DNA of 29,857 nucleotides, taken from a virus. Each line of letters begins with the position of its first letter. The stretch's first letter is position 1. The notes beneath the pieces were generated by a model, which ran no database searches, was not told where the DNA came from, and saw nothing but the letters and a program-made list of their open reading frames with translations. The DNA lies in the IMG/VR virus record IMGVR_UViG_3300037264_005172, positions 1 to 29,857 of that record. The stretch is one strand, 5' to 3'. Made by a program: the position numbers and the translations under genes. Below are positions 2,170 to 24,329 of the stretch, piece by piece.

Positions 2170-5100
2170 TCACGGTACCTGCCGCGCGCCCTTCTGAAGC
2201 GGCAGCGTCGGAACGCGCCCCTTTCCCGAAAGCATCCACGACGGGGCAACGATAGCACCGTTCGAGCCGCCAGCGGACGGGAGTCCGAAGTCCCCAGTCG
2301 TCTGGAAGCCGTGTTCCCAGTCCTCCACAGGGATCATCTGCCCGTCAGGCCCCTCCACGAAATCGCCCGTGGCCGCAGGACTGTCTGGGTCAACGCTGAT
2401 GCCGAGAGATGGCCCCATCGCCTCGGCGGGGAGATTCGCGCGCACGGCAGCGTCGCTGGACGAGAGCGTGTATACACAGGCAGCTACAGCATCTGAAAGA
2501 TCTTTCGCGCCGGCCGAGGGGTGGTCAACTTTCCCCTTCCGCCTGTCGTGTTCCAAGCGCCGCAGCTCGTCCTGCAACGGCGGGTACGGATACAGCAGCA
2601 ACCGATCCTCGTAAAGTGCGGCCTTCAGCAACTCATAGGGAACTGTCGTGCGATCAACCGACACCACCTCGGCGCGATAACCGTTCTGCCGAAGTTGCTG
2701 GAGTCCCTCCGCAGAGTTGTGAGACACGAAGCCGTTGGCGATGTAAGAGGGGTCGTCCTCCACTTGAAGGTCAAACACCTCCGCTTCCGACGGTTCGATG
2801 TGGATGATCTTGGAGAACAGGCGGCGCCCCTTCACAGCGATATGTTTTCGGAGAGCCTCCTGCTTCCGCGAGTACGTGAACCCCACGCGGTTGAGGAACT
2901 TTTCCCGCGCCCCCCGAACGGAGAGGGTGTACTGAAATCCTTCCTTCACGTAACTCTTGGTCTGGCTGCGGTCTATCGTGGTGATGCACGACGCGATTCC
3001 GAAGTCCGTCCGCAGGACGATTTGCACCTGCCGCGCCAAACCGAGGTGCTTGGTCGAAAGAGATACACCACCATCCCTTCGGTTCACGGTACCGTCCGTT
3101 GCGAAGAGACCTCGCAGGAACGCGGCCTTCATCAAGCGGTTGCTACGAAGGATTGCCGTTGGAATAAGGGGCTTCACGAGACTGTTCGCGGCCAGCCACC
3201 GCACCAACCAGCGGGCGTGGATACCAAGGATGCCGCAGTTCCGATCCTTGTGCGGACGAAACTTCGGCCTCACCCCGAACAGACGCTCAAACACGGCACG
3301 GGCGTCGGAGGACTCCTCCTCCGTCACGCTCAGGCGAACAGAGTCCCTACCGATGTCGCCATCCCCCCAAACCAAGCCGAGCCACTCGGCCAGCGACACG
3401 GTCATCGCCATCGGAAACTCGAACGCGGCGATGGCTCCGCGACCCGCGCGCCCCCACCCAAGGAGATTCTTGTCGTTGCGACGCAGCGGATATCCCCCGT
3501 AGTCAGGGTCAACCTCCGTTGGATCATCCACAAGGTGAACGACATCACCGATCTGACATTCGTCCAGCCGACGCCACGCCCACACGGGATTTCTAGTATG
3601 ACCGTACTCCGTCCAATGCTCAGGCCCCCACCCGGCCTGAGCCTCGATGCGGTGCTTGGCCGTTCCCTCGATGATGTGCCCGTCCTCCGTCGTGACGCGC
3701 AGGGTCGGTCGCTTCCCAAACGCCCATCCCTTCAACACACGCCGCGGGCCGACCCGAGACTGCACGATGTCCCCCGCCACAACCTCCTCAACAGGGACGA
3801 GTCCTCGGCCAGTATTCACCAGCGTCCCCTTGGCGAGGCACTGCCACGCATCCATCGAGACATAGAGAATGCGCATCCCGTGCTTGGCGAGATCGTAGAT
3901 GAGGACGCGCACATCGGAGAGGATGATCTCGTCACCAGCCGGGGGCACGATGCGCAGGCAGAAATCCACCTTCACGATGGGCGCACGCTCGATGAAGGTA
4001 GAACCAGACGAGCGATCAGCCCGCTCCATATCCTTGAAGCCGTGAACATGCGCCACGGCAAGCCCCGTCGCATCCCCCGTAAGCGACCCGTCGATGTGCG
4101 CGTGGCGGGGTGCCCGCACGCAGCAGAGCGGCTCGTTCTCTCCGTTCTCGGGATTGCGGCGGACAAGGTACTGCCATCGAAAGGTGGCGACCGTCCCTGC
4201 CTCCCACTCAAGCACCGAGAAGGGATGGATGCGCCCAGGTTCGAGGGCGTCCTCGATCTTCTCGCGGCGCCCGATGAAAGGGGACACGGCGACCGTGGAC
4301 ACGCCGAGGTCGTCGCGGATGGCGTTGTCGAGATCCTTCTCGAAGGAGGAGCGCAGTTCTTCGGGAACCTGGTGGAGCTGCGCACCCTCGAGGTGGCGAT
4401 ACTGATCGGGGTCATCCTTGTCGGAGAGGATGCGCGAGTGGTGCTGCTCGTTCCCGACCAGCACCCAGAACCTCTTTGTCCCAAAGGCGTCGGGCTTCAC
4501 GGCCCATCGGTTGTACTCGCGGATAAACACGCCGCCCTCGCGGCGCGCGTCGCGGATGCGACGCTCGATGAAGTCATTGGTCGTCCGCTTCGACGACACG
4601 AGAAACAGTTTCCCTGGGAGCTTCCCGCCGCGCTGGAGATAGCGCGACTTCATGCGGCGGAGGAGAAGCGTGTAGAGGATCTCGGAGCGGTCGACGAACC
4701 CGAACCGCCGCATGTCCTTCTTCTGCTGCTCCGTCATGCCGCCGAGGAACGCCGACTCGTCCAAAATCCCCCCGAACACGTTGAGACCCAAAACATTGTT
4801 GTTGGTGGCCGCCGCCGGCGCGAGATCGATTCCCTTGGGGAAGCGAATGCTTTCTTTCGTAACCTTCGGTTGAAACTCCCGCACGAAGTACGGAGAGAGG
4901 GCCATCATCTGCGCCATGGACTCGAGGAGGGAGCGCTTGGCGATGTCCACCTTGACCGAAATGGCAACGAGCGAGATGAGCGAGTCGGGCGAGAGGCCCA
5001 TCGCGCGCTGCGGATCGCGGAGACACGAAAGTTCGTAGATGCTGCGGACGGTCGCCAGCTTGGCAAAAAAACTTTTTCCCCATCCGATTGCTCCGGAGAT

Positions 5101-5367
5101 CAAAACCTCGTGGTAATCACCCTCAAACATCTCGACGAGATCGTCCTTCAGCTTCGGATAGAGCGACCTGCCGATGTCCCCCATGTAGTAGTCGTCCTCG
5201 AGCCACTGACGGACGGGCACCACGGAGCGCTCAAAATCCATTCCGAGGACGGGCCCAAGCACCTTCTCGTGCCCCTCCAAGTCCGCCTTCTGCAGGAGGC
5301 GCAGTGCCGCCTCGCGCTCATCGGGCGCGAGGCCCTCTAGGATCGCGGCGTCGTCGGCAGAACTCAC
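2170..5367 (-). CDS. Terminase large subunit (ATPase-nuclease) interrupted by an intein
   Basis: Large terminase, the packaging motor that translocates phage DNA through the portal and cuts it. The ORF encodes 1065 residues; without the 375-residue intein the protein is 690, somewhat long for the family. The ATPase domain shows a Walker A-like SGAIGWGKSFFAK (about residues 91-103) and a Walker B with catalytic acid, VFGGILDESAFL (197-208). The nuclease domain includes DVRVLIYDLAKHGMRILYVSMDAWQ before the intein, and SAEGLQQLRQNGY, a DRTTVPYELLKAALYEDRL segment and KDLSDAVAACVY after it, matching the RNase H-like end of terminases. The GTG start overlaps the upstream stop as GTGA. The last ~70 residues are Gly/Ser/Pro-rich. 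No small terminase is adjacent; a candidate is the gene ending at 15910. Confidence 0.93.
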   Translation of the reverse strand: MSSADDAAILEGLAPDEREAALRLLQKADLEGHEKVLGPVLGMDFERSVVPVRQWLEDDYYMGDIGRSLYPKLKDDLVEMFEGDYHEVLISGAIGWGKSFFAKLATVRSIYELSCLRDPQRAMGLSPDSLISLVAISVKVDIAKRSLLESMAQMMALSPYFVREFQPKVTKESIRFPKGIDLAPAAATNNNVLGLNVFGGILDESAFLGGMTEQQKKDMRRFGFVDRSEILYTLLLRRMKSRYLQRGGKLPGKLFLVSSKRTTNDFIERRIRDARREGGVFIREYNRWAVKPDAFGTKRFWVLVGNEQHHSRILSDKDDPDQYRHLEGAQLHQVPEELRSSFEKDLDNAIRDDLGVSTVAVSPFIGRREKIEDALEPGRIHPFSVLEWEAGTVATFRWQYLVRRNPENGENEPLCCVRAPRHAHIDGSLTGDATGLAVAHVHGFKDMERADRSSGSTFIERAPIVKVDFCLRIVPPAGDEIILSDVRVLIYDLAKHGMRILYVSMDAWQCLAKGTLVNTGRGLVPVEEVVAGDIVQSRVGPRRVLKGWAFGKRPTLRVTTEDGHIIEGTAKHRIEAQAGWGPEHWTEYGHTRNPVWAWRRLDECQIGDVVHLVDDPTEVDPDYGGYPLRRNDKNLLGWGRAGRGAIAAFEFPMAMTVSLAEWLGLVWGDGDIGRDSVRLSVTEEESSDARAVFERLFGVRPKFRPHKDRNCGILGIHARWLVRWLAANSLVKPLIPTAILRSNRLMKAAFLRGLFATDGTVNRRDGGVSLSTKHLGLARQVQIVLRTDFGIASCITTIDRSQTKSYVKEGFQYTLSVRGAREKFLNRVGFTYSRKQEALRKHIAVKGRRLFSKIIHIEPSEAEVFDLQVEDDPSYIANGFVSHNSAEGLQQLRQNGYRAEVVSVDRTTVPYELLKAALYEDRLLLYPYPPLQDELRRLEHDRRKGKVDHPSAGAKDLSDAVAACVYTLSSSDAAVRANLPAEAMGPSLGISVDPDSPAATGDFVEGPDGQMIPVEDWEHGFQTTGDFGLPSAGGSNGAIVAPSWMLSGKGRVPTLPLQKGARQVP
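2716..3840 (-). mobile_element. Intein with LAGLIDADG endonuclease in the large terminase gene
   Basis: A 375-residue in-frame insertion between Gln509 and a Ser of the terminase nuclease domain. It starts at Cys (CLAKGTLVNTGRGLVPVEEV, block A), has block B GTAKHRIEAQ (Thr-x-x-His) and ends with block F/G VFDLQVEDDPSYIANGFVSHN followed by extein Ser. That is a complete Cys1 / His-Asn / Ser+1 splicing set. The middle carries both LAGLIDADG motifs, EWLGLVWGDGDI and FLRGLFATDGTV, each with an intact Gly-Asp or Thr-Asp acid, so the homing nuclease may be active. The insertion site is in a conserved terminase motif (aromatic-Gln then Ser), typical of intein targets. Confidence 0.95.
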
Positions 5368-11145: not shown

Positions 11146-11892
11146 TCAGTCCGCGATTCTTTCTCGTTCCCTCCGTGCCTTCTGAGAGGCGGAAAGCCGC
11201 GCCCTCGCCTCCAGCGTCCATCCAGACCGCATTCGATCCACGACTTCCGAGGAGCGGGGGACGCCGCGCCTCTTTTCCGCTTCGGCACGCACGGCTTGGC
11301 TCGTCATCCTACTCGCCCCAATCTTCTGTCGAACCCGCTCAGGAAGCGGGATGCCTTTCCGTTGACCCATTTTCGCGGCGCTGATCTTAGCTTTGGTTTC
11401 GTCAGACCGAGGGACGCCGACTTTCAGCGCGGCGATACGCGCTATGTGTTGGGGCGTGTTGGTGTTTCGTCCCTTCATCTTTTTTGACATCGCCGTTTTC
11501 CACTCGTCGGTGTGCTTTGGGTGTGGCTTTCCGAGGTTCGATAGACGCTGCTTCTCACGCTCCTCAACCGTTGGAACATATCCAGCGCGACCACCGCCGC
11601 CGTTCGACAGGTTCACCAGCCGAACTCCAGATGCACGCGCTTCCGAAATGTGCTGCACCTCCAGAGCATCCAATCCCGCCTGATCTTCCGCCTGTCCGCG
11701 AACTAGAATCGTCGGCCGCGATCCGCGCTTCAACACCGAAGCAATCCAGTTCGACAGATACGAACGCCGCCGCAGAGACCAAGGAGATACATGCACCCCC
11801 AGTCTCTTTTTTGGCGGCTGTATAGTCTGCCCGATGTAGCGGAGTTCGTTACTCTCGGGATCGTGCAAACCGTAGATGACTCCGTGAGGCAT
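11146..11892 (-). CDS. Free-standing GIY-YIG homing endonuclease with NUMOD3 motifs
   Basis: A 248-residue homing endonuclease. The N-terminal GIY-YIG nuclease domain shows GVIY (residues 4-7) and RYIG (18-21), then KKRLGVHV, a Glu-containing ALEVQHISEA segment and the family's RLVNLSNGGGG. The C-terminal half carries at least three NUMOD3-type DNA-binding motifs (GKPHPKHTDEWKTAMSKKMKG, GVPRSDETKAKISAAKMG, and a degenerate GVPRSSEVVDRMRSG copy). Enzymes of this type cut an allele lacking the gene and spread by repair. The gene sits exactly between two fibre-like genes: its ATG is immediately before the upstream stop, and 38 bases separate it from the repeat-protein GTG. No intron-like flanks were seen, so it is probably intergenic. 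Confidence 0.92.
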   Translation of the reverse strand: MPHGVIYGLHDPESNELRYIGQTIQPPKKRLGVHVSPWSLRRRSYLSNWIASVLKRGSRPTILVRGQAEDQAGLDALEVQHISEARASGVRLVNLSNGGGGRAGYVPTVEEREKQRLSNLGKPHPKHTDEWKTAMSKKMKGRNTNTPQHIARIAALKVGVPRSDETKAKISAAKMGQRKGIPLPERVRQKIGASRMTSQAVRAEAEKRRGVPRSSEVVDRMRSGWTLEARARLSASQKARRERERIAD

Positions 11893-15913: not shown

Positions 15914-16620
15914 GCCTCACCTCCCTGAGCGACGACCACGGGCGGCAGTTCTGCCGCAGAAGCCGCGTTGCCGTCGATGATACGACGAATGGCGCGCAAA
16001 ACATTCGCTTTCTTGATCGGATCGGACATGACCTGCCGAACGAGCGGGTCTTCCACGCCCTGGATCCCCGAGAGGAGCGTGACCTCGCGGGCAAGCGGGG
16101 ATGGCCCATGCTCGGAGTTGAGACCCGACACGACCTTGATCTTCACCATAGACTCCACGAGACGCCGCGAGCTGTCCACGATCTCGTCGATGGAGCGGAG
16201 GGGCACGAAGACGCCGCCCTTCGCCAAATCCGACTCCATAGAAAGGGCCTTATCGAGGCGCACCCGCTGGACGGTCAAGAGGTCGCAGAGTTGCTCCAGT
16301 TCCTCCGTCATCCCCTCGAAGCGGGCGATGGCTCGCTTCACCGTGAGGGGCTTGTGGACGAGGACGCGCTCGGCGAGGGGAATCTCGTGCGCGACCCACT
16401 TGCGGAGCAGCTTGCCGAGGTCGTCAATGTCGTCGTCGAGACAGAAGCCCGCCTTCTGGATGTGATCAGCGACGCCGTAAGACGGGACGCCCTCGATCAT
16501 CATCTGACGCACCTGCCCGAGGAGTTCCTCGGGCAACTCGTCCTTCAAGCGCGCACCTGGGCCTCGGAGTCCCGCGAGGCCACGGTACGGCTGCTGGGGG
16601 CTATTTTCGCTCGAGGACAT
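15910..16620 (-). CDS. Unknown helical protein, possible small terminase or DNA-binding packaging factor
   Basis: A 236-residue protein. The start MSSSENSPQQ was chosen over an upstream reading because it removes a long overlap with the ParB-like gene, leaving only 20 bases. The N-terminal part (LPEELLGQVRQMMIEGVPSYGVADHIQKAG) reads like a helix-turn-helix, and the rest is a long series of amphipathic helices (RAIARFEGMTEELEQL, SRRLVESMVKIKVVSG) that could form an oligomer. That architecture, a wHTH plus oligomerising helices, fits small terminase subunits, but I recognise no specific family and it lies 10 kb from the large terminase. Confidence 0.65.
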   Translation of the reverse strand: MSSSENSPQQPYRGLAGLRGPGARLKDELPEELLGQVRQMMIEGVPSYGVADHIQKAGFCLDDDIDDLGKLLRKWVAHEIPLAERVLVHKPLTVKRAIARFEGMTEELEQLCDLLTVQRVRLDKALSMESDLAKGGVFVPLRSIDEIVDSSRRLVESMVKIKVVSGLNSEHGPSPLAREVTLLSGIQGVEDPLVRQVMSDPIKKANVLRAIRRIIDGNAASAAELPPVVVAQGGEA

Positions 16621-17464
16621 CTGCGGCGCGCGCCTCCCACCCGTCCATAACCTTCGCCCAGACATCGTTGATATCGACGCCTGCGCGAACCACCTTCTCC
16701 GTCATCGCCTTCATCATATCGTAAACGGCGTCGTTGGCGAGGGTGTAGAGTACCTCGCGCTCGCCGTACCCGAAGGCGACGAAGTTGCTGGTGATCGTGG
16801 AACCGTGCTTCGACAGCACGGAGTTCACCAGCGTCGAGAGGTCGTCCGCCGTCTTGGCCCGCGCCTTCTTATGGTCGAAGTCCTTGAGGACGGACTCCGA
16901 GAGGCCTGCCTGCTTCAGGCCATCGCGCACCTGCTTCAGGAGGACACCCCACGCATCGATGCGGAATCCCATAAACTGGCGCAGCGACTCCTCCCCGTAC
17001 TTGGGGGAGAGGCGCTGCACCGCCGCCGACAGCTTCACCACAGACGGTCGCCCGTGGACGGCGTTGAGACGGCAGGCCGCGAAGAACCGCGCGTCCTCCT
17101 CTTCCCACTGCGGGCCGCGCAGGGTGACGACGGGCACGCGCAGCATCCCCGCCGCCTGCGCCGCACGGAGACGGTGGGCACCGCCGACCACGAGGTAGCG
17201 CCCGTTGGAGATTGGCACGACCTCGAGGGGGTCGATGAACCCCAGCTCGCGGATGCTCTCCTTGAGGAGGGCGAACTCCTCGTCGTCCATCTCGTTGATG
17301 TTTTCGGCCATCGGGTCGAGCAGGAGCGGATCGACCATCTCGAAGCCGATGTCGGTCTGCATCGCCGCGTCCACGGCGGGAGACGAAGGCGGCATCTCGG
17401 GCAAAGGGGCGTCGACGACCGTCGGCGCATCTTCGCACGGCCGTGCAATCGGGGCGGACTCCAC
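16601..17464 (-). CDS. ParB/Srx-like N-terminal domain protein
   Basis: A 287-residue protein with a ParB-like domain at about 43-115: a conserved acidic start (PMAENINEMDDEEFALLKESI), RELGFIDPLEVVP, and the family signature LVVGGAHRLRAAQAAG (91-106). In related domains that His-Arg motif binds CTP or forms a nuclease site. In phages such proteins act as modulators, DNA-binding or nicking factors, or partition proteins. The C-terminal 170 residues are helical and lack a recognised helix-turn-helix, so a true partition role is unproven. The start is GTG, two bases after the preceding stop. A 12-bp palindrome repeated in the window lies inside its 5' coding end. Confidence 0.8.
   Translation of the reverse strand: MESAPIARPCEDAPTVVDAPLPEMPPSSPAVDAAMQTDIGFEMVDPLLLDPMAENINEMDDEEFALLKESIRELGFIDPLEVVPISNGRYLVVGGAHRLRAAQAAGMLRVPVVTLRGPQWEEEDARFFAACRLNAVHGRPSVVKLSAAVQRLSPKYGEESLRQFMGFRIDAWGVLLKQVRDGLKQAGLSESVLKDFDHKKARAKTADDLSTLVNSVLSKHGSTITSNFVAFGYGEREVLYTLANDAVYDMMKAMTEKVVRAGVDINDVWAKVMDGWEARAADVLERK
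17435..17446. repeat. Palindromic 12-mer GCACGGCCGTGC, copy 2 of 3
   Basis: Inside the 5' end of the ParB-like gene, encoding part of IARPC, about 20 bases after its GTG. The 14-mer with flanks is here in the opposite orientation to the other two copies (CGCACGGCCGTGCA on the plus strand). Its position at the gene's 5' end would suit autoregulation by a bound protein, which is inference. Confidence 0.65.
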
Positions 17465-18237: not shown

Positions 18238-21200
18238 CTATGCGGCTACGGGCTGGATCGCTTCCTCCTTGGTAGATGGCTCGACGATGACAGGTGCCGC
18301 AGCGTCCTCTCGCCGCGCAATCTCCCATTCGGCCACCATCGCGGCGCCCTCATCGACGGTCATCACGAGCGCCCCCGATGGCGCATTCGCCGCCTTGTCG
18401 CGCGAGGGCACGAAGTAGATGTGCCTCCCGTCCGAGCGGCGTCGCATAACCATCGTGAGTCCCTGCTCCTCGAGATCGCGCCACGACATTCCGTAGCTGT
18501 GATCCTTCTTCAGCTCGCGCTTCTCCCCCCAAGTCGGCTCGGCCTTCGCCACGGAGACGGTGATCGGCACAATATGGTCGTACACCTCGGCCCCGTGCGC
18601 GAGGCGCCACACACCCGCCTCGTCCACGGTGTCGGGCAACACGATCTGGAACTCGTCGTGGACGAAGTTCTGCATATACCCACCAAGGACACGAACAGCG
18701 GGGCCGAGGCGCGCCATCGCACTCTTGGTGATGTCCGCCTCCCACATCTGGATGCAGTTATGAACCAGAACGCCCTCTACGACGAAATGCGGCTGACCAC
18801 CGCCAAGGATGGTCACATCGTAGCAGTTTCCCTTTCCAGCGGACTCCACACGCAAAACCGTCGTGACGGCACCATCTGGAGTCAAAACGGTACCTTTGCT
18901 GCCGTCGATAAACCGACTGAGGAGTTTCCTCTTCTTCTCGTGCGCGAACCCTACGCGATCCCTAAAGAAGGCGTAGCCCGCCTTCGGAATATGGATTCGG
19001 AAGAACCCGTCGTAAGGAGGGTTCTTGTAGAAGAACACCTTCGCGGGGATTCCCAGGGAAAGGAGCAGAAGATGAACCCCACGGGCTAGACCTTCGCCGA
19101 CAGATGTGAACCCTAGAAACCCACCGTGGTTCCTGCCTCGCACAAAAGTCCCGTCCGTGTCGTACAGCCCTCGAAGCAGCGCCGCACGAACCTCCGCAGG
19201 GGCCGTGAACGCCCATTCGGGAATGGTCTTATTCCTCCGAGACTCACGATCTAGGCCGAGTTCGCGCATCCTCTCGCGGGCAGCCTTGTTGCAAAAACGG
19301 ATGTGTTCCCCCGCACCCCCTGGTGTTGACGATGGCGAACGCCCAATACCCGCCCCTGGAAACACGCGCTTCAACAGACGCTCGATATGGAGGGAGTAGG
19401 AGCGTTCCTTCCGATTCACGGCGACGCGCACCTCGTTGCTTACCCCTCGACAGTAGCTCCCGTCCCCGAGAAGAATACCTGTGACCTCTGCCTCATCCGC
19501 AGAAATGGCGCACTTGCTTCCAGGAGACAAGTGCGGAGAAAGGATGAGAGCGTCTCCTGGCAGGAGGCTGTGGGCTTCCTTCCACCCGAAACCGCCAGCA
19601 GGAGAAAGGATGGCTACTCGATGGTCGGTGGAGCACGTGAACTGCGCTCCAGCGCACACGACGCGAACGAGCGCCTTCTGTCCGACTGGGAAAATCTTTG
19701 CGGGGCAGAACCTCTCCCCGTCGAAGACACGCCCCTGAGCAGCCTCTATCTTCTCGTAGCCGCGATCCGTGGCGATCCGCATACCTTCTAATATACACGT
19801 ATTCAGGGCCACATGGTGAAACTCTGGATCGAGCCATCGCCGCCTGCCAGATGGCAACCTCACCCACCCGCCGTTCTTCTTCGCGTCGCTCTGAAAGCTG
19901 AAGTACGCCTGTCGCACATCGGGATACGCGGCCCGCAGCCCGTCGAGGAACACCTGAGCCTGCTCCACCGTGACGCGGTTCTCGGTACGGTGCTTATTGA
20001 TGGTGTCGGCGAGCGTCTCCGCGCCTGAGCCGAAGACGATGGCAAAGTTCACCGAATCCTCGGTGAGAAGGCCGTTCGTCACCATCAGGCGTTCGGGGGG
20101 TGCGACGAGGTCATACACAGGGGCCGTGCCGCACGGAACGATAGACTCGATCGCGTCAGAGCACACGCCGTTCTCGACGGCCCACTCCACCTCCACGGGC
20201 CACGCACCCCGTGGAATGCACTCCCACAAAGATTCCCCGAAGCGCACGCCCTTCTTTGCGCACAAGGCAACGCGCTCACGGATATGTCCCTGCACGGCAG
20301 GCGTGCGCAACAGCGCGTCCAATCCGCCACGAGACACGGGCACGAACCTCGTGCTCCGAGCATCCTTGTCACGCACAAGCGCCTTAGACAACTTGGAGCG
20401 TTTCTCAGCAGACGCAAACCCGACGACCTCGGAAAAACGCCGCGCCTCGCGCCCGAAAACGCCGACAATCCAGAACGCTCCGTACTTCGGTCGCCGCGTC
20501 ATTTGCACGCACGAGACAATCCCGAGGTTCGCCAACATCGCTTGGACTTGCCGCACCAGGATTTCCGACTTTGAGGTGAGACTCACGGCCACATTCCGAC
20601 AAGCGACCGACCCGTCTCCCTCGAACAATCCGCGCAAAAACTCCGTTTGGAACTCCTTGGGAGCAGCGCGAATCAGGCGCGGAACCCTTTTGTTGGCAGA
20701 GCCATCTCCACAGTCCAGCATGCCCATCCAATGGAAAAAGTCGCGGGAGGTGCAAGATAGGGTGGCGACTCGATTGCCCTTCGCTGTCTTTCCCAGATAG
20801 CGACGCAGGCGGCTTCCGACCAACACCCTCCAACACCTTTCCGCGTCGTCCACGGCCTCCCCTTCAAGCATCCCGATCGTAACAGCGTAGCCCGTACCGT
20901 GGTGGCTACGACTTCCTTCGGAAACATAGTAACCAAGCCACCGTGCGGCTTCGGGAGACAGCGCCGCAGGCAGCGAGACAGGCTTGGAGGAGGTGCGGGC
21001 AGGCAACAACACCTTCGGAAGACCGACTTCGCGCCCGAAGAGGGATGTTCCAATCTTCAAGGGGAGTTCGTCTTTGGGGTGCAAATCAGCAAGAGGCACA
21101 AAATCCATACGACCATCTCGAAAAACCAAGAAGCGATGAGCGGCGGTCGCCGTGAGTACGAAGCCAAGCTTCGTAGTCACCCGATACACGGGCTGCTCCC

Positions 21201-22896
21201 CGCCGTAGTAAACCTGTGTCACATCGCGCACGCCCTCTTTCGACGCCGCCGACAACTTGAACGGCGCGTCTTGGAACTCTCCTGGGCGTTCCCTCGGAAC
21301 CAGCTCGTCCATCCGAAGCAGCCCCGCATCCGTGCAGACCAACGCATCCCCCGTCACGCACTTGGCCATGATCCGTTCCGCCAACCCCAACGCAGTCTGC
21401 GTCTCCCTGTGAATGTCGCGCCCCGCGAGGAACGCTTCGATCATCCTCTTGTCGCGGGCGATGATGGCCGCGATGCGGAGCTGGAGTTGCTCGTAGTCAA
21501 CGAGCCAGAGATTGAACCCTGGCGGGGCGACGAACGCACGCCTGACGCCCGCATCCGCGCTGCGTGGCATCTGCTGGAGGTTTGGTTCTGACTGCGACGT
21601 CCGCCCCGTGTCCGCCCCGAGTTGTCGGATGCTCGGATGGATGCGGCCACCATCGCCCGACTCAGCAAACAGACGGAGCGACCCAAGAAACTCAAGGGAC
21701 TTGGTGAGTTCCTTCCACCGCAGGACGCGAAGGGCAAGAGGATGCCCCGTCCGAGAGAGGGCCTTCTCGTGCGTGGCGACCTGCCTGCTCGGGCCTCCCT
21801 TCGAGAACGCGCCCGCGATCTCCTTCGGTATCGAGACGCCGCGCCGCGCACAGATGTCCTCGAGAACATCGCGTGCGCCACTGAACTCGCGCGATGCGTA
21901 GCTCTCGCGCTCAAACGCAGCGGCGACGCCCTTCGGAATCCCAGGGGAGGACAGCCACTTGGCGACCACGCCAAACAGCGCCTCCCACGCCTTCCCGCCG
22001 CCCGTCATCTCGGTAAGAGGGACTTTCTGCTCCACGAGATACTTGGCGAGATCCCGAGCCTTGGCAAGGTCGCAGGAGAACTCGGAGGCGATGGAGTCGG
22101 CCTCGGCCTTGAGCTTCGCCTCCTGCTCGCGCAGGAAGTCGTGACGCACGGCGCAGCCGCCCTCCTCCATCAGGTTCAACTCTGGCATTGCGGCGTACTC
22201 GAGGTGGGCCGTGGCTTGGAGCGCGGGGTCGTAGTCCTTCATCGACCGCTCCCGAACATCCGCGACCATCTCGCAGTCAGCCATCGCATACTCGGCGACG
22301 AGGTAGGGGTTGGCCTTGGCCATCGCACCGCGCACGCGGATGCTCGTCTTGTGCTCCTTGAACCAGGCGTCGAGGGCGGCCCTGTCCTCGGCGGCGAGAC
22401 CGAACGCGGCCTTGGCGAAGGGCTTGAGCTCGAACGACTCGTACTTCCCCGCGTAGATGATCTGGCAGAGGAGCATCGCGCACCTCGTCCGCGACCAGTC
22501 CACCATCACCCCGTCCTTCGACAGCATGGCGGAGTCGAATCGAGCGTGCCACCAGATGTTCGGGACGGGCAGCGCAAGGACAGCGCGGATGATTTCGAGG
22601 GCCTCGGCCATGTCGGCGTTCTCGAACGGGTCATTCTCGTGAGATGAACCGAATAGGTCACCGTTGATGGCCTCAGGCTTCCACTCGTGGCGCAGCGGGA
22701 CATAAATGGACTGCCGCCGCTCCCCCTTCCGCCAATGGGCGGAGAAGCCGACGATGCGGTCACCATCATGTGCGCGAAGTCCTGTTGTCTCGGTGTCGAG
22801 ATAAAGCATCCCAGACTGCGCCGCCCCCTCGAGGAAGTCGGCGGCCTCCGCCATCGTGCGGACGATCCTGCGGTCGGCCTTCGCGGGGGCGATCAC
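18238..22896 (-). CDS. Family A DNA polymerase with 3'-5' exonuclease, interrupted by two inteins
   Basis: Replicative-type DNA polymerase I homologue; 1552 residues, about 770 after removal of both inteins, close to phage PolA length. Exonuclease motifs: LYLDTETTG (Asp34, Glu36), HARFDSAML, and YAMADCEM. Polymerase motif A is LVDYEQLQLRIAA (about 465-477), motif B is K-SVNFAIVFG split by intein 1, and motif C is NFVHDEFQIVLPD. Compared with E. coli Pol I, the steric-gate Glu710 is Gln and Tyr766 is Phe, while Phe762 is kept. The GTG start overlaps the upstream stop (GTGA). No 5'-nuclease domain is present. Function requires both splicing events. Neighbours suggest a replication and DNA-modification block. 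Confidence 0.95.
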   Translation of the reverse strand: MIAPAKADRRIVRTMAEAADFLEGAAQSGMLYLDTETTGLRAHDGDRIVGFSAHWRKGERRQSIYVPLRHEWKPEAINGDLFGSSHENDPFENADMAEALEIIRAVLALPVPNIWWHARFDSAMLSKDGVMVDWSRTRCAMLLCQIIYAGKYESFELKPFAKAAFGLAAEDRAALDAWFKEHKTSIRVRGAMAKANPYLVAEYAMADCEMVADVRERSMKDYDPALQATAHLEYAAMPELNLMEEGGCAVRHDFLREQEAKLKAEADSIASEFSCDLAKARDLAKYLVEQKVPLTEMTGGGKAWEALFGVVAKWLSSPGIPKGVAAAFERESYASREFSGARDVLEDICARRGVSIPKEIAGAFSKGGPSRQVATHEKALSRTGHPLALRVLRWKELTKSLEFLGSLRLFAESGDGGRIHPSIRQLGADTGRTSQSEPNLQQMPRSADAGVRRAFVAPPGFNLWLVDYEQLQLRIAAIIARDKRMIEAFLAGRDIHRETQTALGLAERIMAKCVTGDALVCTDAGLLRMDELVPRERPGEFQDAPFKLSAASKEGVRDVTQVYYGGEQPVYRVTTKLGFVLTATAAHRFLVFRDGRMDFVPLADLHPKDELPLKIGTSLFGREVGLPKVLLPARTSSKPVSLPAALSPEAARWLGYYVSEGSRSHHGTGYAVTIGMLEGEAVDDAERCWRVLVGSRLRRYLGKTAKGNRVATLSCTSRDFFHWMGMLDCGDGSANKRVPRLIRAAPKEFQTEFLRGLFEGDGSVACRNVAVSLTSKSEILVRQVQAMLANLGIVSCVQMTRRPKYGAFWIVGVFGREARRFSEVVGFASAEKRSKLSKALVRDKDARSTRFVPVSRGGLDALLRTPAVQGHIRERVALCAKKGVRFGESLWECIPRGAWPVEVEWAVENGVCSDAIESIVPCGTAPVYDLVAPPERLMVTNGLLTEDSVNFAIVFGSGAETLADTINKHRTENRVTVEQAQVFLDGLRAAYPDVRQAYFSFQSDAKKNGGWVRLPSGRRRWLDPEFHHVALNTCILEGMRIATDRGYEKIEAAQGRVFDGERFCPAKIFPVGQKALVRVVCAGAQFTCSTDHRVAILSPAGGFGWKEAHSLLPGDALILSPHLSPGSKCAISADEAEVTGILLGDGSYCRGVSNEVRVAVNRKERSYSLHIERLLKRVFPGAGIGRSPSSTPGGAGEHIRFCNKAARERMRELGLDRESRRNKTIPEWAFTAPAEVRAALLRGLYDTDGTFVRGRNHGGFLGFTSVGEGLARGVHLLLLSLGIPAKVFFYKNPPYDGFFRIHIPKAGYAFFRDRVGFAHEKKRKLLSRFIDGSKGTVLTPDGAVTTVLRVESAGKGNCYDVTILGGGQPHFVVEGVLVHNCIQMWEADITKSAMARLGPAVRVLGGYMQNFVHDEFQIVLPDTVDEAGVWRLAHGAEVYDHIVPITVSVAKAEPTWGEKRELKKDHSYGMSWRDLEEQGLTMVMRRRSDGRHIYFVPSRDKAANAPSGALVMTVDEGAAMVAEWEIARREDAAAPVIVEPSTKEEAIQPVAA
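18757..19797 (-). mobile_element. Intein 2 in the DNA polymerase gene, LAGLIDADG type
   Basis: A 347-residue insertion in HVALNT-CIQMWEADI, which aligns with the N845...Q849 segment of E. coli Pol I. Block A starts at Cys (CILEGMRIATDRGYEKIEAAQG). Block B is CSTDHRVAIL, with Ser in place of the usual Thr before x-x-His. LAGLIDADG motifs are VTGILLGDGSY and LLRGLYDTDGTF, both with intact acids. The end is CYDVTILGG... then VEGVLVHN followed by extein Cys, giving a canonical Cys1 / His-Asn / Cys+1 set. By eye the DNA is less GC-rich than the polymerase exteins, which suggests later acquisition. Confidence 0.95.
20056..21360 (-). mobile_element. Intein 1 in the DNA polymerase gene, LAGLIDADG type, atypical Glu-Asp C-terminus
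   Basis: A 435-residue insertion exactly in motif B, between the catalytic Lys of IMAK and SVNFAIVFG. Block A begins at Cys (CVTGDALVCTDAGLLRMDEL); block B is LTATAAHRFLVF. LAGLIDADG motifs are RWLGYYVSEGSR and FLRGLFEGDGSV. The C-terminal block reads VYDLVAPPERLMVTNGLLTED before extein Ser: the usual His-Asn is Glu-Asp. Inteins ending in Asp are known and some splice, but loss of the penultimate His as well is uncommon. The junction is placed by the extein alignment AK-S-VNF, which leaves no other sensible cut. Confidence 0.92.
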
Positions 22897-23159: not shown

Positions 23160-23572
23160 GCCTTACTCCGCCGCCGCAGCCACGAACGACAGTCGCGGCA
23201 CTTCGGGTCGGGGGCCGCATGGACGATGCACTCTCCACGCATCTCGAGTTGTATTCCCGCACGTGTGTGCATGCACGCGCCGAACACGGCATCGCAGGTT
23301 CCGCAGGAGCGGCCCTTCCTGGCGCACTCGGCGATGGCTTCCTTTTCCAAGTCCGACGGACGGAGCCGCGTCCAGCACGCCTTGCAGTAACCGCGCGACT
23401 TCTTGTTCGTCCACTTCGAGCAGACGATGCACCGCGTTCGCTTCCTGTGCGCAAATCCCTGGTAGTGCATCCGCAACTTGAGGTCGCGCTTCTCCTCCGC
23501 CGTGAGCGGGCGATCCTGCGGCGGGTTCGGCGCGGCGGCTGCGGAGGGGCGCTGCGCCATCGGGCCGATCAT
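23156..23572 (-). CDS. Zinc-finger-like Cys-rich protein, 138 residues
   Basis: Two apparent metal-binding clusters are visible: CIVCSKWTNKKSRGYCKACW (CxxC...CxxC, zinc-ribbon or HNH-like spacing) and a second set with CARKGRSCGTCDAVFGACMH and CRDCRSW. The N-terminus is Ala/Pro-rich and probably disordered. ATG overlaps the QueC-like stop (ATGA). No nuclease signature is complete, so it is best called a zinc-binding DNA/RNA-associated protein of unknown role. Confidence 0.72.
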   Translation of the reverse strand: MIGPMAQRPSAAAAPNPPQDRPLTAEEKRDLKLRMHYQGFAHRKRTRCIVCSKWTNKKSRGYCKACWTRLRPSDLEKEAIAECARKGRSCGTCDAVFGACMHTRAGIQLEMRGECIVHAAPDPKCRDCRSWLRRRSKA

Positions 23573-24219
23573 ACACGGCGAATCCTCCTGCGCTTCCCTG
23601 AAGAGGGCGAACCGTTCTCGCCCTCGCGGCGCTCCACGCAGGAATCACATTTCCCGCACGCCTTCGTCCCCTTTGGATCTTGACACGACCAGCAAAGGTC
23701 GAGCGGAAACTTCCATTCCCGCAAGTTCTTCACGACATCCTTTTTCTCCCACCACTCAAGCGGCGTCTGCAACTCACCGCTGATCCCGTTCAGGGCGGCG
23801 AGGTTTCGGAACGCCCCGTAGAGCCACTCGCGCCGATGCCAGATGGGATCCCACTTGATGTACCCGAGGACGAGATTGTCCGTCGTTCGCATGTACGGCA
23901 CCGCGAGCCCCACCCAAAAGGGATGAAGCACCGAAGGTTGTCCGCCGTTCGCGGCATCCTTCTGTTCCGTGGCGGACGGATCAAGGGGCAGAACCCCCCT
24001 GCCGACGACGCTGACCTCGGAGTGCCAGATGGGGTACCCCTGCTTCCGCATCCACGCGAGGATGCGCGCCCGCTGGCGGCGCTCGTTCGCGGAAGCACCG
24101 ATCTGTTTGTGGGTAAACGAGATGGCAGCGACGGGCACACGCTTCGACGCGGAAACCGCCGCGTGAAGAAGGGCAGCGGTCGAGTCGAGACCGCCCGACC
24201 AACAGACAAGGGCCGACAC
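23569..24219 (-). CDS. QueC-like 7-cyano-7-deazaguanine synthase / PP-loop ATPase
   Basis: A 216-residue PP-loop enzyme. The P-loop is SGGLDST (residues 8-14) at the very N-terminus. The C-terminal zinc site reads CWSCQDPKGTKACGKCDSCVER (Cys179, 188, 191, 194 plus Cys176), matching the QueC family. QueC makes preQ0 from 7-carboxy-7-deazaguanine; in phages preQ0-type bases can be put into DNA to resist host restriction. Other pathway genes (queD, queE, folE, dpdA) are not in this window. The GTG start just before SALVCWSGG is in a TAGTG overlap with the membrane-peptide gene. An upstream in-frame extension is unlikely. Other PP-loop family roles are possible. Confidence 0.85.
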   Translation of the reverse strand: MSALVCWSGGLDSTAALLHAAVSASKRVPVAAISFTHKQIGASANERRQRARILAWMRKQGYPIWHSEVSVVGRGVLPLDPSATEQKDAANGGQPSVLHPFWVGLAVPYMRTTDNLVLGYIKWDPIWHRREWLYGAFRNLAALNGISGELQTPLEWWEKKDVVKNLREWKFPLDLCWSCQDPKGTKACGKCDSCVERREGENGSPSSGKRRRIRRV

Positions 24220-24329
24220 TACTTGCAAACCCCGACGAAGATGCCGAACAACCAAAGGCACACCCAGAGCAATCGGTAGTGGATGCCGTCCAAGAGTTCG
24301 ATGATGCGCTCGGCATTCTGGTCGTTCAC
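24219..24329 (-). CDS. 36-residue single-pass membrane peptide
   Basis: A very short gene with start and stop both locked by overlaps: its GTG overlaps the HD-gene stop as GTGA, and its TAG overlaps the QueC-like start as TAGTG. The product has a charged N-terminal part (VNDQNAERIIELLDG) and one hydrophobic segment (YRLLWVCLWLFGIFVGV) near the C-terminus. Third-position use and perfect coupling favour a real gene. It could be a small membrane-anchored regulator; function unknown. Confidence 0.65.
   Translation of the reverse strand: MNDQNAERIIELLDGIHYRLLWVCLWLFGIFVGVCK

Follow-up and report, generated by a model that had tools for sequence, protein, structure and literature searches.

An intein with a rare Glu-Asp ending inside motif B of a viral family A DNA polymerase

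The polymerase gene and its surroundings

The stretch of DNA analysed here, referred to as the window, is the 29,857-base virus record IMGVR_UViG_3300037264_005172. On its minus strand, at 18238-22896, it carries an open reading frame of 1552 codons, free of stops and frameshifts, that encodes the precursor of a family A DNA polymerase containing two inteins. Pfam assigns DNA_pol_A (6.8e-36), LAGLIDADG_3 (9e-30) and Intein_splicing (6.9e-9) to this frame, and the top NCBIfam models are PRK14975 and DNA polymerase I. NCBIfam models for DpoZ, the aminoadenine polymerase, match the frame as well, but their values of 3e-20 and 2e-15 fall well short of the models' cut-offs.

All parts of the precursor are encoded on the minus strand. 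The N-extein (residues 1-512; 21361-22896) ends with the catalytic lysine of motif B, Lys512 (codon 21361-21363), and is followed by intein 1 (435 amino acids; 20056-21360), which is supported by Pfam and NCBIfam, translation, tblastn, phmmer, Foldseek and alignment. A middle extein of 86 amino acids (SVNFAIVFG...LNT; 19798-20055), defined by alignment with intein-free polymerases, separates it from intein 2 (347 amino acids; 18757-19797), and the C-extein with the motif C sequence VHDE (18238-18756) closes the precursor. Intein 2 is inserted just before the motif CIQMWEAD (PxQG-equivalent), its final VHN, with a canonical His-Asn, directly preceding the Cys+1.

In alignment, the polymerase retains the motif A Asp, the motif B Arg, Lys and Phe and the motif C His-Asp-Glu, the pattern to be expected of a gene that still yields a functional enzyme. 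Whether that enzyme would be fully active is less sure, since motif A reads DYEQLQLR, with Gln in place of Glu, and motif B contains FG rather than YG (Tyr to Phe). The third-position GC content of intein 1 is 0.70, compared to 0.80-0.83 in the exteins, which fits a mobile insert and says nothing about splicing.

Elsewhere in the window, a third intein (2716-3840; DAWQ/C...SHN/SAEG) lies within an open reading frame on the minus strand (2170-5367) that we read as terminase-nuclease-like, no family model having matched its exteins. Three inteins are thus found within 30 kb, and the two other than intein 1 (18757-19797 and 2716-3840) end with His-Asn. Other virus records are rich in inteins too, with six intein N-terminal matches in a record of 98 kb (L015) and seven in one of 218 kb (L082). 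PHROGs matches further identified a QueC-like gene (23569-24261), a ParB-like nuclease gene (16601-17464) and a separate homing endonuclease gene (11146-11892), all on the minus strand.

Catalytic residues and splice junction of intein 1

Intein 1 is an open translation of 435 amino acids (20056-21360, minus strand) running from Cys1 to Asp435 (CVTGDALVC...VYDLVAPPERLMVTNGLLTED). It contains two LAGLIDADG motifs, AARWLGYYVSEG (20917-20949) and EFLRGLFEGDG (20611-20643), both with their acidic residue kept, and is predicted to encode a homing endonuclease. A Foldseek search with the predicted structure returned intein-endonuclease structures first (TliVMA best with 8.4e-21, then PI-PfuI and PI-PkoII). 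In the AlphaFold model (mean pLDDT 67.1), residues 427-451 score below 50, so that the C-terminal block is too weakly predicted for a judgement of active-site geometry.

The residues for all splicing steps but the last are intact. These are the step 1 nucleophile Cys1 (21358-21360; translation and alignment with other inteins), the block B TxxH motif Thr72-Ala-Ala-His75 (21136-21147), of which His75 is invariant in all nine alignment rows, Asp417 at position F:4 of block F (20110-20112), and Ser+1 (20053-20055), which opens the C-extein and is the nucleophile of step 2. Conversely, three C-terminal residues are replaced. Position F:13, where His is usual, is occupied by Arg424 (20089-20091), and block G (20056-20076) reads Asn-Gly-Leu-Leu-Thr-Glu434-Asp435, placing Glu at G:6 and Asp at G:7 instead of His and Asn. 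The initial annotation had described a polymerase intein ending with NGLLTED before an extein Ser, with both terminal positions departing from His-Asn, and this is confirmed by the translation, the DNA (aac ggc ctt ctc acc gag gat tcg) and the alignment; the third change, from His to Arg424 at F:13, had been overlooked. It had also named a sequencing error at the Glu-Asp codons as a possible refutation. At least three substitutions separate the codons for His-Asn (CAY AAY) from GAG GAT, and by eye neither of the two other frames of the printed DNA offers a His-Asn, so that a single-base error cannot explain the ending, and a sequencing error or frameshift as its source was rejected.

Intein 1 sits exactly between the motif B catalytic Lys512 and the Ser of Ser-Val-Asn-Phe, in agreement with the initial reading that it parts this lysine from the downstream NF. 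In a phmmer comparison with Taq polymerase, the match stops in the N-extein and restarts at S948, which corresponds to the Thr of TINFGVLYG (Taq chain residue 372). After both inteins had been cut out by script, the window polymerase was aligned with eight intein-free viral polymerases, and the Lys512-Ser joint proved free of gaps, with no residue extra or missing; two of the aligned polymerases read GKS-VNFAI and AKS-VNFAI across this point, the same residues as those flanking intein 1. A scan of IMG/VR with the intein-blind pattern VNFAI-x-[FY]G yielded 35 stretches, sorted manually into 21 insert-free polymerase frames with Lys-x-Val-Asn-Phe, two polymerase-like frames lacking the Lys and 12 non-polymerase stretches. 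This flush alignment makes Glu-Asp part of the intein and Ser the +1 residue. A different, canonical junction, which comparison with intein-free polymerases might have revealed, was rejected, as the alignments with Taq and with the uninterrupted polymerases leave neither a gap nor an extra residue. An unspliced precursor would carry 435 extra residues within motif B, and without splicing the host enzyme should be inactive.

In its overall make-up intein 1 corresponds to class 1. It combines Cys1 and the block B Thr-x-x-His, where class 1 has Cys or Ser at position 1, with one of the allowed residues (Cys, Ser or Thr) at +1, Ser being fixed by the alignment, and with Asp at F:4, the commonest residue there; it is an in-frame insert whose excision restores a conserved host motif, motif B. 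It departs from class 1 at G:7, with Asp435 for the terminal Asn, a variant that, like Gln, is accepted in a review of inteins (PMC4031507), and at G:6 and F:13, where His is common, not universal, and Glu434 and Arg424 are found. Class 3, defined by a Trp-Cys-Thr set without a nucleophile at position 1, was rejected, as Cys1 is present, F:4 is Asp, block B has no Trp and only the block G Thr of the set occurs. A type B bacterial intein-like domain, defined by a lack of similarity to intein block G, was rejected as well, given the conserved block G NGLLT, the Ser+1 and the motif B site.

Relatives and rarity of the ending

A tblastn search with intein 1 against 50,697 phage records matched 67 records, all below 60% identity, with full-length relatives; the phage inteins matched share about 20-28% identity with intein 1, and the eight records examined at the C-terminus all end with His-Asn. 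The same search against plasmids gave one record. Peptide-pattern scans returned no loci with the intein as query and three with the whole open reading frame. A His-Asn pattern scan recovered seven viral inteins at the identical Lys/(Ser, Thr or Cys) site (L015, L016 and L018-L022), while its eighth stretch (L017) held no such frame, and an N-terminal pattern added a further viral polymerase intein at this site (L082). All eight of these inteins share the insertion site of intein 1 and, unlike it, end with His-Asn. The nearest to intein 1 by identity are L020 (30%) and L021 (28%). A tree built from 20 splicing domains had low resolution, with eight of 17 inner branches open and two starred, and gave no firm sister for intein 1. 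One of the site inteins, L022 (IMGVR_UViG_3300013357_000095), starts with Ala and carries the Trp-Cys-Thr set; judged by these residues it looks class 3-like, in which case two splicing classes would occur at this one polymerase site.

Related inteins with the Glu-Asp ending, a search proposed in the initial annotation, were looked for in IMG/VR and in genome contigs and none was found. With a degenerate pattern in which Glu-Asp precedes [Ser/Thr/Cys]-x-Asn-Phe, IMG/VR gave no match and genome contigs gave eight, all by chance and none in a polymerase or intein; patterns for Asp endings at the site gave eight plus one stretches in IMG/VR, again none a polymerase or intein. These ending patterns require exact matches and fixed codons, by which diverged sites are missed. 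A tblastn search with the 87-residue junction peptide gave, among the matches listed, nothing better than an E-value of about 1, these matches lying in DNA polymerase genes. A match in Gordonia phage Archimedes was rejected as an intein carrier, the annotated Pol I of about 664 amino acids leaving no room for such an intein. Since the eight site inteins end with His-Asn and the comparable Asp scans were empty, the Glu-Asp ending would most simply be a derived state, and with no relative found to share it, there is no sign of selection keeping it. A search of the open-access literature brought up no report of an intein ending with Glu-Asp at this polymerase site, which is weak evidence as subscription papers mostly lie outside that scope.

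To place the ending among inteins in general, C-termini were surveyed with a profile of blocks F to G that leaves off the final two residues and was seeded without the window intein, the following residues then being read. The loci were drawn from 398 and 395 genomes searched for intein N-termini, from virus records and from earlier matches. The search of 395 genomes gave 97 matches, of which 30 entered as loci and 60 as further regions, seven being left out; some N-terminal matches had no readable C-terminus and duplicates were merged. The seven viral polymerase inteins in the survey had come in through the His-Asn pattern, and because that pattern could only find His-Asn they are no independent evidence for this ending. 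From the 113 rows of the survey table two were dropped, one a chance frame (L063) and the other a Hint domain (L145). The remaining 111 C-termini comprised 106 His-Asn, three Ser-Asn, one Gly-Gln and one Glu-Asp, the latter being the window intein, which is the only one to lack His at both G:6 and F:13. The three Ser-Asn inteins retain the F:13 His and the Gly-Gln intein has a His one residue off at the fixed offset used; F:13 was scored as non-His in 49 of the 106 His-Asn inteins, an approximate figure because of this fixed-offset reading.

The Gly-Gln ending belongs to a bacterial ribonucleotide reductase intein (L052, G393:C22; NGLVT-GQ/CGEQPL, before Cys+1) which, like the window intein, departs from His-Asn at both G:6 and G:7; it differs from the latter in its host protein, in the residues concerned and in the His adjoining the F:13 position. 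The dropped Hint domain (G785:C130) ends with Gly-Asp, has Val at +1 and is probably no true intein but an intein-like domain. The Glu-Asp ending is a genuine, well-placed and rare variant; the mobile intein that bears it is otherwise ordinary and no novel type of element. Variant-ended inteins are known as a general idea, and it is the combination at F:13, G:6 and G:7 that looks rare.

A probable splicing route without His-Asn and its alternatives

An Asp-ended Carboxydothermus intein reportedly splices with its Asp and fails with Asn. The Carboxydothermus RIR1 intein is said to end with Asp, and the RIR1 intein of Chilo iridescent virus and the Pol II intein of Pyrococcus abyssi with Gln, and cases of both kinds reportedly splice. 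The window intein resembles these three in that its terminal residue is not Asn, its terminal Asp matching the one reported for the Carboxydothermus RIR1 intein; unlike them, it also lacks the G:6 and F:13 His and resides in a phage-type family A polymerase.

In canonical class 1 inteins, the G:7 Asn acts with help from the G:6 His and often from the F:13 His. Inteins ending with Glu, Gln or Asp do splice, some inteins can do without the F:13 and G:6 His, and other C-terminal cleavage mechanisms are considered possible for Asp and Gln endings, according to the review (PMC4031507). In the mycobacteriophage Bethlehem RDF intein, a class 1 intein which has Gly at G:6, splicing is complete and a change to His slows it greatly, so a departure at a single position is tolerated and even tuned; like the window intein, it is a phage intein with a non-His G:6. 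The G:6 residues named in the section on this position are Gly, Lys and Ser, not Glu, with the terminal Asn treated as kept (PMC5050341).

The reading we prefer, at a probability of roughly 0.6, is that intein 1 belongs to class 1, is mobile and carries an endonuclease, occupies a site in motif B of family A polymerases that phage inteins use repeatedly, and probably still splices through an Asp-dependent last step. Cys1 would form the thioester, assisted by Thr72 and His75, whereupon Ser+1 would receive the N-extein to give the branched ester. The C-terminal bond would then be cut with the terminal Asp435 instead of by Asn cyclization, either through attack of the Asp via an anhydride-like intermediate or by Asp/Glu-assisted hydrolysis, and an acyl shift would finally join Lys512 to the Ser, by which motif B would be restored. 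Arg424 and Glu434 occupy the positions of the two assisting His residues and, as a guess, could be partner replacements that orient or protonate the scissile bond. The complete Hint and LAGLIDADG architecture found by Pfam, NCBIfam, tblastn and Foldseek supports this reading, as do the open frame, the flush junction, the retained polymerase motifs, the conserved residues for the other steps, the further viral inteins at the site and the published splicing of variant-ended inteins, while the loss of all three C-terminal catalytic residues, as decay would give, and the failure to find a relative with the same ending count against it. A stronger version, in which the site has been rebuilt rather than lost, with Arg, Glu and Asp in place of His, His and Asn and a cut that needs neither assisting His nor Asn cyclization, possibly gating the viral replicase in response to pH or ions, is tentative and rather doubtful.

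A splicing-dead or mainly cleaving intein is possible. The C-terminal splice site may have decayed, leaving cleavage at the N-junction or the precursor only, in a lineage with a crippled polymerase or one relying on another polymerase. The replacement of all three usual C-terminal cleavage residues, an ending that the pattern scans of IMG/VR and genome contigs found in no relative, and the altered motif A and motif B of the exteins would all suit such decay. We nevertheless consider it unlikely, as the 1552 codons have remained open, the residues for the other steps, the LAGLIDADG acids and the polymerase motifs are all intact and the gene's other intein, intein 2, ends canonically; decay is not expected to spare everything except the last step.

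Slow or condition-dependent splicing, in which a His-free, acid-rich C-terminal site delays maturation of the polymerase and acts as a switch on replication, is quite improbable, and control of the polymerase by intein 1 is speculation. The insertion between the catalytic Lys and the remainder of motif B would suit such a switch, as would the strong G:6 dependence of phage intein splicing, in the study of which tuned splicing in phages has been argued for (PMC5050341). The site alone, however, implies no control, because inteins of other phages share it with ordinary endings. A sequencing or assembly artefact or a different canonical junction is very improbable. The Glu-Asp intein was seen in one copy on a single virus contig, which would suit such an error, but the number of substitutions needed, the other reading frames and an alignment that leaves no space for another junction stand against it.

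Returning to the preferred reading of a splicing intein, the earlier claim, by which a variant mechanism and control over the polymerase are the only options, holds in part: of the readings, a variant last step fits best, but to admit only these two options is too strong and nothing shows control. The Glu-Asp intein could yield a slow or acid-tuned splicing tool. There is continuing debate on how the C-terminal bond is cleaved when Asn and both assisting His are missing, and a natural intein in which all three are replaced, at a place where the unspliced host enzyme should be inactive, makes this question directly testable.
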